Assembly (NCBI RefSeq): GCF_003991135.1
Contig: NZ_CP016379.1
Coordinates: forward strand, 2,790,001-2,854,000
Length of the DNA: 64,000 nt
Direction: 5' to 3'
Origin: Anoxybacter fermentans
GTDB taxonomy: Bacteria; Bacillota; Halanaerobiia; DY22613
The notes beneath the pieces are model-generated. The model was not told where the DNA came from. It worked only from the letters and a program-made list of their open reading frames with translations, and searched no databases. Below are positions 45,858 to 57,250 of the stretch, in pieces (within the stretch, counting starts at the first letter, position 1; each line of letters opens with the position of its first letter). The translations under genes were made by a program, and so were the position numbers.

Positions 45858-45994
45858 ATGGTTATACTGCAAAAAGCTAATTTTAAGCAACATAGAAATT
45901 TTTCGATAAACCATCTTAACGAGATTTCAGTCGAACTTTAGATGGTTCGAAAAATTTCTTTTAAAGAAAAATTAGCTTTTTGCAGTAAAATCAT
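45858..45994 (+). repeat. palindromic intergenic repeat, medium copy R14 (137 bp)
   Basis: Ends ATACTGCAAAAAGCTAATTT and ATTAGCTTTTTGCAGTAAAA. The middle AAATAAGG stem and both inner hairpins are deleted, leaving GAGATTTCAGTCGAACTTTA. Confidence 0.88.
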
Positions 45995-46024: not shown

Positions 46025-46906
46025 ATGGATAAGCATCATAAGTTCATTATCATTACAGATCTTATTATCGGGTTTTTTGAATCCTTATTAGTCAAGTTTG
46101 AAAACCCGGGGTGGATCTGAAACTGTACTCTGTCTTCTCTTTGGTGCTTTTATGATGATCGGTGCTATGGTCTTTTTGAGATGTCCTTTAAGGACGATTT
46201 TACGTCTTGCAGGCGGTGATTTGAATGCAATAGGTGATATGTTGGATTTTGTCTTTCGTATAGTTATAGGAACCATCTATCTTAAAAAGGGTTTTACCCT
46301 GAGTAAACCTATTTCATCTGAAAATCAGGTCAGCGGTTAGGTCTTTCCTATATAGATGATTTGCTTATTGATTCTGTTGATTGTTAAACCGGCATTTATC
46401 GCCTTCAGTCAGGCTGGCCCTGGTTCTTTATCTGCACCTATTTTGCTGAGCCTGTTCGTAGGCCTCATCGTTGGATTTCTTGTTCAAAGCACAGGGTTTT
46501 GTTTTACTGGAGGATATCGAAATCTTATATTTGGTAAAAACCCTCATCTATTTCAGGGATATCCGATGACTTTTGTAACTGCTCTGTTCTTTAATTTGAT
46601 CTTTGGCCAATTTAAACTGGGTTTTGCTAATCAGCCCGCTGCCCACAGTGATTACCTCTGGTCTTTTTTGAGTATGACTCTGGTAGGAATCTGTGCTACT
46701 TTTGCAAGTGACTATCCACTCCGGCAATTGATCAAATCTACAGAAGGAAATCTGGATTCTGTTATAACCGTCTTCGGAATGATTCTGGGCACAGCTTTCG
46801 CACATAATTTCGGCCTTGCCAGCAGTGGGAAAGGTACCACCGCTAACGGTCAAATCGCAGTTATCATCGGACTGGTTACTGTCCTGGTAATCGGGTACTT
46901 CTGCAA
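46025..46906 (+). pseudogene. yedE: decayed YedE-type selenium/sulfur transporter
   Basis: The ATG at 46025 has CAGGAGG. MDKHHKFIIITDLIIGFFES and LLVKFENPG are followed by a deletion of roughly 60 codons and a frameshift to RGGSETVLCLLFGAFMMIGA and LRLAGGDLNAIGDM. Stops follow near 46338-46355, then AGPGSLSAPILLSLFVGLIV to SSGKGTTANGQIAVIIGLV. The family cysteine motifs GCPLR appear as RCPLR and DYPLR, so key residues are gone too. The 3' end is replaced by repeat R15. The family (DUF395) is linked to selenium metabolism. Confidence 0.82.
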
Positions 46907-47116
46907 AAAGCTAATTTTGAGTGACATAGAAATTTTTCGCCAAATCATCTTAGCAAGATTTCCGACGAAATAAGGCCTCATCACAGGAGGTGATGAGCTA
47001 ATCAAGGGCCAGGAGGGCCCTTTGATTAGGAAGCCTTATTTCGGCGAAAATCGAGCTTTAGATGATTCGAAAAATCTCTCAAAAAGTGAAAAATTAGCTT
47101 TTTGCAGTTTAACCAT
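46898..47116 (+). repeat. palindromic intergenic repeat, full copy R15, inserted in yedE remnant
   Basis: Full copy: CTGCAAAAAGCTAATTTT, CATCACAGGAGGTGATG hairpin, AAGGGCCAGGAGGGCCCTT hairpin, TTAGCTTTTTGCAGTTTAAC. It replaces the end of the yedE reading frame, whose open frame runs about 23 codons into it. Confidence 0.92.
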
Positions 47117-47153: not shown

Positions 47154-47387
47154 ATGTCAAGAGAATATCTGGTATTCACTTTTCCTTCTACATACCACGC
47201 TCTGAGAGCAGAAAAAGCCCTTAAGGAAAATGGTTATCATAACTGTGGTGAAGTCATCAGGGTTAAACCAGAAATAAAATTAGAAATTCAAAAAATTTTA
47301 GAAGAGGTTGGTATAAAAATCGAAGCTATTCATCTTATTAAGTCCCAAAAAAAGCATATTCTAATAGATAATTTTTTCGGATTTTAA
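47154..47387 (+). CDS. DUF3343-like small protein
   Basis: The 77-aa protein begins MSREYLVFTFPSTYHALRAE, matching the (S/T)TxHAL(K/R)AEK start of DUF3343 proteins, then KALKENGYHNCG and KPEIKLEIQKILEEVGI. In typical members about a dozen residues (PVPR...SSxCG region) lie between these parts; they seem missing here. DUF3343 genes often accompany yedE and selenium-linked genes. The RBS is weak (GAAAGG, far from the ATG), and the neighbour is a dead yedE, so this gene may be decaying too. Confidence 0.6.
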   Translation: MSREYLVFTFPSTYHALRAEKALKENGYHNCGEVIRVKPEIKLEIQKILEEVGIKIEAIHLIKSQKKHILIDNFFGF

Positions 47388-52077: not shown

Positions 52078-53760
52078 CTATATCTCACCAAAAGTATTGT
52101 TTATAGGCAGTTCTATGGTAAAAGCAGTTCCTTTACCCACTTCGCTCTCAACACTAATTTTACCATTATGTTTTTCTATAATTTTACGACATATTGATAA
52201 TCCAAGGCCTGTACCAATTCCCTTTTCTTTAGTTGTAAAACCAGGATCAAAAATTCTATGTAAATTTTCAGGGGGAATTCCGATCCCGTTATCTCTAATC
52301 TGGACAAAAACTTTATCACCTTTAGCCCAGGTTTTTATCCATATATCCCCGTTATTCTCAATAGCCTGTGCAGCATTAACTATTATATTCATAAAGACCT
52401 GATTTAATTGATTGGGAAAACATTTGACAGGCGGAATCTCACCAAACTCTTTATGTACCTTAATCCGGTGTTTGAGCAAATTATGTGAAAGTATCAGTAC
52501 ACTTTCTATTCCATCGTGGAGAGATACTTCCTGAAATTCAGCATCGTCCAGGCGGGAAAAGTTTTTCAGTTGGCGTACGATTTTAATGATCCTATCACAG
52601 GCTAATTTATTGGTATCATTAGCTTTTTTAAGTTTATCAAACATCTGTGCTACTTTTTCATTATGTTCTAAATCCAGCTCCTCTTTGAGAAAACCAATCA
52701 CCATTTCAATAATATCGGTATTGCTATTAATGGCTCCTAGCGGTGTATTTATTTCATGGGCCACACCAGCTGTCAACTCACCCAAAGATGCCATCCTTTC
52801 CGATTGAACCAGCTGGATCTGGGTATCCTGAAGTTGCTTCATAGCATCTTCTAAATTCTCATTAAGAAATTTTAGCTCTTCTGTTTGAGCTGCCAATTTT
52901 TTAGCCTGCTGAGTTAACTGTTGGTTCTTTTCTTCCAATCGTGCCTGTTTATCCTCCAACAATTTGACAAAACGCTTTGTACTATCCATCACCATATTAG
53001 TGGCTTCTGCTAAGTCTTCTACCTCTTTATAGGTCTTTTTAAATGTTATACGCTCTGTCAGATCATCTTCAACCCGTGCAACCATTCGGATTTTTTGTGC
53101 CAATATTTCCAAAGGTCGAACAATTCGCATCATCATAATCCGGGTTACCCCAAGATTAAATATAAAAACGGCAATAATTAATAAGATAATTATTAGAATC
53201 ATTACATCAAAAATTCTCAGCCATATATTAGGATTAAGTTTGGCGACAAAAATCCCTGCCATCTCACCTTTACTATCCCAAATAGGTGTATAAGCAATAA
53301 TATTATATGGTCTTTTAACATACTCAATCTTACCGCTAAATTGATATTTTTCCAATCGATTCATTACTTCAGGCGAAATTTGATAGGAGGTAAAAAGTTC
53401 ATCTTTACTATCAATAATACTGACCATCTGACCATTCAATTTTTTTATAATTGAAAATTGGATTACACCATTCTCCCAGAACCAGGAAAATGTCTCTTTT
53501 AATTTTCTGGTAATCTCTTTATATTCAGGACCTGTAAAATCGTCCATAGAATTAATTTTATTTAAATCATCCCCATCTACCAGATTCAAACAAACTTTTC
53601 CAAAAATCTCGGTAATTATTAAGGTTCCAGACATAACAAACTGATATGCAAACCATATATAAATACCTACCAGCAGAATAAAAATAAAGAGAAACTCTAT
53701 TCCAATAATACGCCTGATTTTTTTCTCTAATGCCCGTTCATTCTTTTTCCACTTTTTCAT
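52078..53760 (-). CDS. membrane sensor histidine kinase
   Basis: The 560-aa kinase has TM1 near residues 18-40, an extracytoplasmic sensor of about 140 residues, TM2 near 185-205, HAMP (about 205-260), a coiled-coil (about 265-320), HisKA with phospho-acceptor LTAGVAHEINTPLGAINSNT, and the ATPase motifs NAAQAIENNGD (N box), DNGIGIPPENLHRIFDPGFT (G1/F) and GIGTGLGLSICRKI (G2). It overlaps the upstream HD-GYP regulator gene by 4 bp, its likely partner. The signal is not known. Confidence 0.92.
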   Translation of the reverse strand: MKKWKKNERALEKKIRRIIGIEFLFIFILLVGIYIWFAYQFVMSGTLIITEIFGKVCLNLVDGDDLNKINSMDDFTGPEYKEITRKLKETFSWFWENGVIQFSIIKKLNGQMVSIIDSKDELFTSYQISPEVMNRLEKYQFSGKIEYVKRPYNIIAYTPIWDSKGEMAGIFVAKLNPNIWLRIFDVMILIIILLIIAVFIFNLGVTRIMMMRIVRPLEILAQKIRMVARVEDDLTERITFKKTYKEVEDLAEATNMVMDSTKRFVKLLEDKQARLEEKNQQLTQQAKKLAAQTEELKFLNENLEDAMKQLQDTQIQLVQSERMASLGELTAGVAHEINTPLGAINSNTDIIEMVIGFLKEELDLEHNEKVAQMFDKLKKANDTNKLACDRIIKIVRQLKNFSRLDDAEFQEVSLHDGIESVLILSHNLLKHRIKVHKEFGEIPPVKCFPNQLNQVFMNIIVNAAQAIENNGDIWIKTWAKGDKVFVQIRDNGIGIPPENLHRIFDPGFTTKEKGIGTGLGLSICRKIIEKHNGKISVESEVGKGTAFTIELPINNTFGEI

Positions 53761-54812
53761 ATTTTAATCTCACCCTCCTGGATCAATTCAATAAGAATTC
53801 TAACAACATCTTGATCCAGTTTCCCACCTGCTGCTTCTTTTTGTAATATTTCAATACACTGCTCAATTGGTAATTTAGAACGATAAGGTCTGTCTGAATA
53901 AAGGGCATCAAAGATATCTACTACTGTTAAAATTCTAGCTTCTAGACAAATCTCATCCCCTTTTAAACCATCGGGATAACCGGAGCCATCTAATTTTTCA
54001 TGATGACTGCGTATAAGCTGACGGATTTTAGCTAATGTTTTTAAAGGTTTACAGATTTCTTCACCGATCACCGGATGAGTTTTTATAATATCAAATTCTT
54101 CATCAGTCAGCTTACCCGGCTTATTTAAAATCGCTTCTGGAACACCTATTTTACCAATATCGTGGATTAGTGCTGCTGTTCCCAGAATTTTAAGTTGCTC
54201 TTCACTTAAATCAAATCTCTCACCCACTTTTAATGCCATCTGTTTTACTCTTTCAGTATGATCTTCGGTATATTTATCCTTAGCTTCAATAGCTTTGGCA
54301 AAAGAGATAATTACATTCTCAATATTTTCCTTCTCCTGTCTATATTCTTCTTCAAGTAAATTATATAAACGGGTAATTTCATCTTTTGATTTTTTCAGTT
54401 CTTCAACCTTTTCTTTAAGTTCATCAATCAATATCTTCTTTTCCAGACCATTATATATGATTTTTACCAGTTCCTCATTATTCCAGGGTTTTTCAATGTA
54501 ATAATATAGTCCAACTTCATTAATCGCTTTGATTGCACTCTCTTTATCAGCACAGCCGGTAAGAAGAATCAATACAGCATCCTGGTTAATCTCTTTCACA
54601 CGGCGCAAAAACTCCAATCCAGTCATACTGGGCATTAAAAAATCAGAGATAACCAGATCTATCTCTTCTTCTTTAACATATTTAAGCCCCACCTCAGGGT
54701 CATTAGCAGTTAAAACCCGTAAATCTGTGGTCAGTTCCAGATATATGGATATACTTTCTGTAATCATTACTTCATCGTCAACAACCAAAATAGTTCTTGT
54801 TTTTTTGCTCAT
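53757..54812 (-). CDS. response regulator with HD-GYP phosphodiesterase domain (RpfG-like)
   Basis: In this 351-aa protein a REC domain (VVDDEVMITESISIYLE; phospho-Asp in DLVISDFLMPSMTGLEF; residues 8-125) is followed by a coiled linker and HD-GYP (about 165-345): HTERVKQMALKVGERF, ALIHDIGKIGVPEAIL and HHEKLDGSGYPDGLKGDEIC. All metal-binding His and Asp residues and the GYP motif are present, so c-di-GMP hydrolysis is expected. It forms an operon with the histidine kinase. ATG follows GAAGGAGGTGATTTGTT. Confidence 0.93.
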   Translation of the reverse strand: MSKKTRTILVVDDEVMITESISIYLELTTDLRVLTANDPEVGLKYVKEEEIDLVISDFLMPSMTGLEFLRRVKEINQDAVLILLTGCADKESAIKAINEVGLYYYIEKPWNNEELVKIIYNGLEKKILIDELKEKVEELKKSKDEITRLYNLLEEEYRQEKENIENVIISFAKAIEAKDKYTEDHTERVKQMALKVGERFDLSEEQLKILGTAALIHDIGKIGVPEAILNKPGKLTDEEFDIIKTHPVIGEEICKPLKTLAKIRQLIRSHHEKLDGSGYPDGLKGDEICLEARILTVVDIFDALYSDRPYRSKLPIEQCIEILQKEAAGGKLDQDVVRILIELIQEGEIKI

Positions 54813-55068: not shown

Positions 55069-55094
55069 ATTATCAGATAAAAAATAATAACAAA

Positions 55095-55119
55095 ACCAGG
55101 GCTTAAAAAAACCCTGGTC
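55095..55119 (-). terminator. terminator-like hairpin after the DUF1858 gene
   Basis: ACCAGGG pairs with CCCTGGT. On the minus strand the T-rich part lies in the loop and in the weak TTTTG that follows, so efficiency is uncertain. Confidence 0.5.
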
Positions 55120-55127
55120 CTAAGATA

Positions 55128-55325
55128 TTAATGATTCCGTTCATATTCATTGAGTTCTGTCAACAGAGAATTAAGATCAACTCTGGAAAATCTGGCAGCA
55201 TCACCGATGCTGAAATTGGCCATACTACCTCAGCCAAATACTTTAATCCGATGTTTTTCAAAGACTTTTTCTATACCGGGTACATTAAAGACTACATCGG
55301 AAATTTTATCTTCGGCATGAATCAA
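55128..55325 (-). CDS. DUF1858-domain protein with in-frame TGA (candidate selenoprotein)
   Basis: Start at TTG 55325 after GGGAGGTGATATT; 65 codons to TAA at 55128. The reading is LIHAEDKISDVVFNVPGIEK, VFEKHRIKVFG, TGA (55232-55230), GSMANFSIGDAARFSRVDLN, SLLTELNEYERNH. DUF1858 proteins carry a CxGC motif after the first helices; here the first Cys is Val and the second is the TGA. The rest of the frame is intact. Downstream, CAGCATC-GGT-GATGCTG (55212-55196) forms a 7-bp hairpin 17 nt after the TGA with a G-first apical loop, as in bacterial SECIS elements. Either Sec is inserted here or the gene carries a single nonsense mutation. Confidence 0.55.
55196..55212 (-). promoter_or_regulatory. 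candidate bacterial SECIS hairpin
   Basis: The stem CAGCATC/GATGCTG with loop GGT begins 17 nt 3' of the TGA and may extend by GGC/GCC across an internal bulge. It fits the loose bacterial SECIS description (stem-loop just after UGA, G among the first loop bases). Confidence 0.45.
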
Positions 55326-55396
55326 AATATCACCTCCCTTCTTAGTTTATGAGTTCGACAAAAAATTAACCTGTATATTTTTTTACAATTTATTTT

Positions 55397-55448
55397 ATGA
55401 TTAAACTGCAAAAAACTAACCATCTTAATAAGATTGAAAGAGAAATAA
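55397..55448 (+). repeat. left fragment of repeat copy R19, cut by the IS element
   Basis: ATGATTAAACTGCAAAAAAC, CCATCTTAATAAGATTG and AGAGAAATAAG match the left arm. The IS begins at this point, and the matching right end is at 57230-57250. Confidence 0.7.
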
Positions 55449-55562
55449 GGGGCTGTCTCAAAAGTAATTAATTACTTTTGGGCATGGCCCCTTTTTTCAT
55501 TGTTCATTTTAAATTCATTGAAAATTTTTCTGTTAAGAAAATAAAAACCCATACCTGACATT

Positions 55563-57119
55563 CTATACTGTTGCCAGTTTAGCCAGGTTATGGGCTATAC
55601 ACAGTAAACCCCATTCAATTTTTACTTTCTCAAGGCCACGAAGCAGAAATCTCCGGAATGACCAATTACCTTTGATCCTTCCAAAGACAGATTCCGCTTC
55701 AATTGCTCTTTGAGAACGGAGTTTCATACCTTTATCGGAACAAAGGTTTTCCTTTACCTTTTGCTTATATTCACGTAATTTAAAATTTATTCTTATTACT
55801 CGATCACCTTTGGCCTTGGTACAATTTTCTTTTAACTCACACCCATCACAATTTTCGCATTTGTAATATCTAATTTGTTTAGTATATCCATTTTCAGTCT
55901 TAATTTCTTTTGTCTTACAGTAAATGAGTCTTCTTTGAGCAGGACAAATAAACTCGTCGTTTTCTTTATCATACGGCCAGTTTTCTACTTTAAATATATC
56001 ATTTTTAAACTTCTTCTTTTGTTCTTTATGAAAAGTATTATACTTAACATAAATATTAGTATTGGCTTTCTCTAAGTAATCATAATTTTCCTCACTACCA
56101 TAACCTGAATCAGCTATCACATTTTCCGGAATCTTACCTGTAACTTCTTTTACTTTTTCTAAATGAGGTATTAAGCATCTTGAATCTGCCGGCCTTTGAT
56201 GAATACTATAACCAACTACAAACTGATTCTCTGTACCTATCTGAACATTATATGCGGGCTTCAATTGCCCATTTTTCATGTGGTCTTCTTTCATTCTCAT
56301 AAAAGTTGCATCAGTATCTGTTTTAGAATAACTGTTTCGTCCATTTAAAATCTCTTCCTGCTGCTCATATTTTTTCATTCGAGGAAGACATTTATCTTTG
56401 AGCTCTTTAACTGTTTTTTTTAACTTCTTATCTTTGGAGTTCTTTTCTAGACGTTCTTCAAGTTCCTTAATTTTTTCTTCGAGTTTCTTTGAATCTATTT
56501 CTTTTCCTTCACCCATCTCCTCCAGGTCATTATCCCCATACAATCTATTCTCTTCTTCGTTGGTTTTCTCAATCTCTTTTAAAAGTTCATTAATTTTTGC
56601 CCTAAGCCTTGCTTTGTACTTCTTTGTCGCTTTTCTCCAGACAAAGCTATATTTGTTTGCATTAGCTTCTATTTTTGTACCATCTAAAAAGTAATTCTCT
56701 AACTTTACATATCCTTCTTCTATAAGAAGTTCCAATACTGATGCAAATACCTCATCAATAACATCTTTCATGATCTCTGATCTGAATCGGTTTATCGTCC
56801 GAAAATCAGGTTTATTGTTACCACTAAGCCACATAAAATAAATATTTTCCCGAAGTGCCTTGGCAATTCGTCTTGATGAATATATTCTCTGAGTATAGGC
56901 ATATACTATAACCTTAAGCATCATTTTCGGATGGTAGCTGCTTCTACCCCCACCTTTATATTTTTCAAGCAGGGGTTCAATATTCATCCTTTCTATAGCT
57001 GAATTTACCACCCTTACTAAATGATTCTCAGGAATAAACACATCAAAACTCAAAGGCAACATTGTCTGATTCATATTATATTCAATAAATGTCTTTTTAT
57101 TATGGTTTTTCCTCTTCAT
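55563..57119 (-). CDS. IS1182-family transposase
   Basis: This 518-aa protein has an N-terminal DNA-binding part (FDVFIPENHLVRVVNSAIER, MMLKVIVYAYTQRIYSSRRI), a charged coiled insert (about 190-250), and a DDE core with GTKIEANANKYSF, SKTDTDATFMRMK, AYNVQIGTENQFVVGYS and VIADSGYGSEENYDYLEK. A zinc-ribbon-like CENCDGCELKENC precedes the final ESVFGRIKGNWSFRRF (Glu). It is uninterrupted. Neighbouring sequence is unrelated. Confidence 0.93.
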   Translation of the reverse strand: MKRKNHNKKTFIEYNMNQTMLPLSFDVFIPENHLVRVVNSAIERMNIEPLLEKYKGGGRSSYHPKMMLKVIVYAYTQRIYSSRRIAKALRENIYFMWLSGNNKPDFRTINRFRSEIMKDVIDEVFASVLELLIEEGYVKLENYFLDGTKIEANANKYSFVWRKATKKYKARLRAKINELLKEIEKTNEEENRLYGDNDLEEMGEGKEIDSKKLEEKIKELEERLEKNSKDKKLKKTVKELKDKCLPRMKKYEQQEEILNGRNSYSKTDTDATFMRMKEDHMKNGQLKPAYNVQIGTENQFVVGYSIHQRPADSRCLIPHLEKVKEVTGKIPENVIADSGYGSEENYDYLEKANTNIYVKYNTFHKEQKKKFKNDIFKVENWPYDKENDEFICPAQRRLIYCKTKEIKTENGYTKQIRYYKCENCDGCELKENCTKAKGDRVIRINFKLREYKQKVKENLCSDKGMKLRSQRAIEAESVFGRIKGNWSFRRFLLRGLEKVKIEWGLLCIAHNLAKLATV

Positions 57120-57140
57120 ATTTATATTTTACCATAAAAA

Positions 57141-57186
57141 AAAGGTGTTGTCTTTATAAAAATTTCTGACAACACCTTTCTTTTAA
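57141..57186 (+). terminator. inward-blocking terminator within the IS
   Basis: AAAGGTGTTGTC pairs with GACAACACCTTT, followed by CTTTT. It lies between the transposase start and the IS right end. Confidence 0.7.
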
Positions 57187-57229
57187 TATTTACTTTTGGG
57201 GGTTATAAAGGGACTTTTGGGACAGCCCC

Positions 57230-57250
57230 TTATTTTTGCTGTAATTTATT
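57230..57250 (+). repeat. right fragment of repeat copy R19
   Basis: TTATTTTTGCTGTAATTTAT resembles CTTATTTC and the TTTTTGCAGTTTAATC end of the family. Together with 55397-55448 it brackets the IS. Confidence 0.5.

Follow-up and report, generated by a model that had tools for sequence, protein, structure and literature searches.

A conserved in-frame TGA in a small DUF1858-fold gene of Anoxybacter fermentans: a probable selenoprotein without cysteine

A single TGA within an otherwise intact frame can mark a decayed gene, a true stop or a codon read as selenocysteine (Sec), and a 65-codon gene of Anoxybacter fermentans raises the question of which of these readings applies. The initial annotation had proposed the gene as a candidate new selenoprotein.

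The interrupted frame and the selenocysteine machinery

The gene lies on the minus strand at 55128..55325 of the window, i.e., the whole 64-kb stretch of DNA that was analyzed, and its 65-codon frame with a single TGA at 55232-55230 was found as first described. The frame opens with a TTG start (55325-55323), closes with a TAA stop (55130-55128) and carries the TGA at codon 32, which is read here as Sec within the motif VFGU. A ribosome-binding site, GGGAGGTGA (55330..55338, minus strand), recognized by sequence reading and graded strong, precedes the TTG, and similar sites are present in the orthologues of the genomes G001 and G405, which are described below. Downstream, an intrinsic terminator on the same strand (55091..55122), with a counterpart at the same place in G001, delimits a single-gene unit. 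Translation of 55325..55128 with TGA as U gives LIHAEDKISDVVFNVPGIEKVFEKHRIKVFGUGSMANFSIGDAARFSRVDLNSLLTELNEYERNH*.

Within this single window, the combination of TGA, open frame and hairpin is no better than chance: given 2462 TGA triplets, 41 with a hairpin of -7.0 or lower and 43 with at least 30 open codons on each side, 0.7 such sites are expected over both strands and 1 was found, namely the selenoprotein site. The significance of the locus comes instead from comparative evidence.

A search of the genome for the Sec machinery, which had been suggested as a check, returned the complete set. The Anoxybacter fermentans genome (one contig, 3.56 Mb) contains selA, selB, selD and tRNA-Sec, with matches of 634.5 bits for SelA, 436.6 bits for SelB, 404.4 bits for SelD and 76.2 bits for the tRNA, whose anticodon is tca (ARAGORN). 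SelD has an in-frame TGA of its own, followed by an 8-bp triloop hairpin, and is likewise a selenoprotein with a triloop hairpin 3′ of the TGA in both genomes (L051, G000:C1:1616749-1617675, and L052). It thereby serves as an internal positive control for the use of UGA for Sec in this genome: it shares with the window gene an in-frame TGA and a subsequent triloop hairpin with G in the loop, whereas the two proteins are unrelated. SelB was present in 18 of the 18 TGA-form genomes tested; however, 24 of 26 genomes with a Cys form carry it as well, and thus its presence does not separate the two forms.

These findings bear on the reading in which UGA specifies some other residue, through reassignment of the stop to Trp or Gly or through misincorporation of Cys. 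Nothing specific favors it, and Cys insertion at UGA is compatible with the sequence; however, dedicated tRNA-Sec, SelA, SelB and SelD are present, and the aligned residue of homologues is Cys, the usual counterpart of Sec, so that this reading is extremely improbable.

Conservation of the TGA, the frame and the hairpin

An orthologue with 68% identity, its single TGA at the matching codon, was found in G001, the only other genome of the order that was compared, which belongs to the same family and another genus. G405, from another family and the third carrier among 59 genomes of the class, encodes a protein with 46% identity and, again, one TGA at the same codon. All three proteins contain IKVFGUG and zero Cys, in line with the earlier remark that the first Cys of the CxGC motif is replaced by Val. 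The gene order shared by the window and G001 comprises a DMT transporter, a methyltransferase, the selenoprotein gene, a response regulator and a histidine kinase.

Beyond the class, a survey of 398 genomes of the phylum gave 44 with a match, many of them carrying one TGA. Eleven of these relatives were read out, and each has the TGA at the same column, the motif CxGU and a hairpin of its own. Cys occupies the Sec column in L078, a close homologue with CLGCGG from a Bacillota genome, and in L077, a CLGC paralogue of the TIGR03980 type in the window genome itself. The proposed alignment of homologues with Cys or TGA at this site therefore yielded both, TGA in three VFGU and 11 CxGU proteins and Cys in L078 and L077, and the Sec falls on the column of the second Cys of CxGC, as had been claimed.

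A second TGA-containing DUF1858 paralogue, with CFGUGVAKFEN, was observed at L108 (G059:C13:27654-27842), in a genome that also has a CxGU form; with two TGA paralogues in one genome, Sec may have arisen on more than one occasion in the wider family. The genomic neighbors of the CxGU genes, named by eye as FtsW-like, NUDIX, radical SAM, MiaB and IMPDH, include no common operon partner, and prismane (Hcp)-family proteins occur in the three VFGU genomes, unlinked to the selenoprotein gene. A related-locus search with the window protein as query gave zero matches, and a plasmid search gave no match; the same related-locus search with the alignment as query recovered the Cys form alone because the search patterns carry Cys in place of Sec.

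Comparison of the window gene with its G001 orthologue (NG86) gave an overall dN of 0.20 and dS of 1.49 (dN/dS about 0.14), and a dN of 0.24 and dS of 0.85 for the part 3′ of the TGA alone. The changes at codon positions 1, 2 and 3 number 18, 6 and 27, respectively, with zero indels. Such a substitution pattern is what translation past the TGA leaves behind, with purifying selection on either side of it.

The possibility that UGA is a true stop, which ends a 31-residue peptide while the downstream conservation serves something else, agrees with the intact frame 5′ of the TGA. However, the downstream half is under protein-level constraint and makes helices 3-4 of the fold, and in the homologues L078 and L077 a Cys codon stands at this position and the frame continues without interruption; a true stop is accordingly given next to no probability. 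Only slightly more credit, and still very little, is due to a pseudogene, in which the TGA would derive by mutation from a Cys (TGY) or Gly/Trp codon and the remainder would be decaying. Nearby features are indeed broken, e.g., yedE with an internal TAG, and an IS element and MITE-like repeats flank the gene, but the identical TGA recurs in three genera and two families, no indels surround it, dN/dS is well below 1 on its 3′ side, and the ribosome-binding site, terminator and hairpin are all maintained. The unrelated decay in relatives that was named at the outset as counting against a selenoprotein was absent, since TGA, frame and hairpin are all retained.

The hairpin described in the initial annotation was confirmed as CAGCATC-GGT-GATGCTG at 55212..55196 of the minus strand, with a 7-bp stem that begins 17 nt 3′ of the TGA and a GGT triloop at +24 from it. 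Published constraints on the bacterial SECIS (bSECIS) include a loop of 3-9 nt, a stem of 4-16 bp, a G in the first two loop positions, a distance of 16-37 nt from UGA and an energy of -7.5 or lower (PMC13188914); the window hairpin, with 7 bp, GGT, +24 and -7.8 kcal/mol, lies within all of them. When the protein was held fixed and synonymous codons were varied, an equally stable hairpin arose with P = 0.010 for the window, 0.002 for G001 and 0.0002 for G405. In the three VFGU species, all seven pairs are intact (21 of 21 cells paired), two compensatory changes (A-U to C-G and G-C to A-U) are present, and no slid pairing approaches the observed one. The covariation is limited to two events among only three members, and 48 of 500 shuffles do equally well, which is no more than so small an alignment would lead one to expect. 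The minimum-free-energy structure of the first 57 nt 3′ of the window TGA is a different, longer fold, and an Rfam search gave sub-threshold, chance-like matches only. The CxGU hairpins have a GGC, GGG or GGT triloop at +29 and covariation of their own (8 of 500 shuffles). The position of the putative SECIS element thus differs by 5 nt between the groups, that of the VFGU genes being closer to the TGA.

Based on the Sec machinery, the conserved TGA, the coding conservation on both sides and the conserved, covarying hairpin, the window gene is very probably a genuine selenoprotein gene and not a pseudogene. In the proposed mechanism, UGA codon 32 would be decoded as Sec by SelB together with tRNA-Sec, and the GGU-loop hairpin 17 nt downstream would guide the insertion. 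The pseudogene, true-stop and reassigned-code readings were rejected on account of the conserved TGA, the purifying selection and the full Sec machinery.

Fold, known relatives and proposed chemistry

The assignment to DUF1858 made at first stands for the fold and is weaker than claimed for the sequence profile. The best Pfam matches of the window protein are ScdA_N with 26.1 bits (cut-off 32.5) and DUF1858, PF08984, with 19.5 bits (gathering cut-off 32.2); the TIGR03980 score is 26.6 bits against a cut-off of 44.95, with no Cys pair, and none of the NCBIfam models (June 2026) matches the protein above its cut-off. The AlphaFold (AF2) model comprises four helices (pLDDT 95.9) and matches 2K53 (Z 11.0) and 2K5E (Z 10.5), both of DUF1858 type, and the N-domain of YtfE (Z about 10), so that by the model the protein has the DUF1858/ScdA_N (YtfE-N) fold. 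Sec32 would lie in the loop that joins helices 2 and 3, at the position equivalent to the second Cys of DUF1858 CxGC and of the CC pair of YtfE/ScdA.

Three known systems resemble the window protein. The nearest is the DUF1858 selenoprotein with CxxU, which is likewise small and of DUF1858 type, has Sec at the second position of CxGC and, among its CxGU relatives, a SECIS-like hairpin directly 3′; the window clade differs from it by VFGU, zero Cys and a SECIS loop at +24, where the CxGU genes have theirs at +29, and it reaches neither the DUF1858 nor the TIGR03980 cut-off. The hybrid-cluster-protein-associated redox disulfide domain (TIGR03980) has the same length and register, and its second Cys aligns with Sec; unlike the window protein, it has two cysteines of its own that can form a disulfide, and no UGA. 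The ScdA_N (DUF542) domain of the RIC proteins YtfE and ScdA shares the fold, with the second Cys of the CC pair aligned to Sec, whereas the window protein is free-standing, without the C-terminal hemerythrin-like di-iron domain, and has one Sec in place of two Cys.

The function of the window protein is read from fold and motif alone. Since the VFGU proteins contain no Cys, Sec cannot close an internal Se-S bond. In YtfE, Cys30/31 serve as an electron relay to the di-iron site (PMC9052748), and C31 carries dimerization (PMC9268430). By analogy with this Cys pair, we tentatively propose, as the likeliest role, that the protein is a small redox relay of an anaerobe, in which Sec would act by intermolecular exchange, i.e., by pairing with another protein or a small thiol in a mixed Se-S bond or by forming a diselenide dimer, or by metal binding.

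Published lists of selenoproteins contain a ‘DUF1858 domain-containing protein’ (PF08984, CxxU, WP_012065717.1; PMC9312934; PMC13188914). The term ‘candidate new selenoprotein’ therefore holds as to selenoprotein, by comparative evidence, and in part as to new: the family is already listed in its CxxU form, and the Cys-free VxxU subgroup is new. What is new is the VFGU clade, which has no Cys, carries its hairpin 5 nt nearer the TGA and does not reach the cut-offs of Pfam and NCBIfam. This clade was not found in the literature searched, the coverage of which was partial, so that an earlier notice of the subgroup is possible.

The origin of Sec in the clade depends on how the Sec column is treated. 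In a tree with this column read as Cys, the VFGU and CxGU Sec groups fall apart; with Sec masked, all Sec rows and the Cys form L078 fall on one side of a branch scored 83/78 (not starred), and the Sec rows alone as a group gave a p-AU of 0.064. A somewhat more guarded proposal than that for the role is that the VFGU proteins form a separate DUF1858-fold lineage without a resolving Cys, in which the selenol is the only thiol or selenol and may act as a one-selenol relay by intermolecular or metal chemistry; the SECIS at +24 as against +29 would be in keeping with Sec having been gained independently.

The DUF1858 selenoprotein family now extends beyond CxxU, and its SECIS appears movable relative to a conserved fold. 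Genes like the window gene are probably missed or called pseudogenes because standard gene calling stops at TGA and the protein scores below the Pfam and NCBIfam cut-offs. Additionally, a Cys-free selenoprotein with a clean fold of 65 residues offers a compact system for testing the chemistry of one selenol apart from internal thiols.

Genomic neighborhood in the window

The next gene downstream, on the same strand, encodes a response regulator with an HD domain of the HD-GYP type (53757..54812), which adjoins a histidine kinase (52078..53760, minus strand); the order of both is conserved in G001. The selenoprotein gene is preceded, about 120 nt upstream, by an inserted IS element at about 55443-57235 with a DDE transposase at 55563-57119. 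No sigma-70-like promoter was found between the insertion and the gene, and the insertion may affect the promoter in the window strain.

A decayed yedE about 8 kb away had been offered as a sign of selenium metabolism in the lineage. The gene is really broken, by an internal TAG, but it counts neither for nor against the selenoprotein, since Sec is clearly still decoded in this genome. The remnant of this yedE-type selenium transporter spans 46025-46973, with the N-terminal part partly missing, the TAG near 46341 and a 3′ end that enters a copy of a MITE-like repeat. It adjoins an intact gene for a small Se/S carrier (PF11823, 50 bits) at 47154-47387. The MITE-like family is about 150 nt long with terminal repeats ACTGCAAAAAGCTAATTTT, and the window contains 19 matches to these ends, where chance would give 0.1; examples lie at 45979, 47101, 54933 and 55394, and one copy separates the selenoprotein gene from the response regulator.
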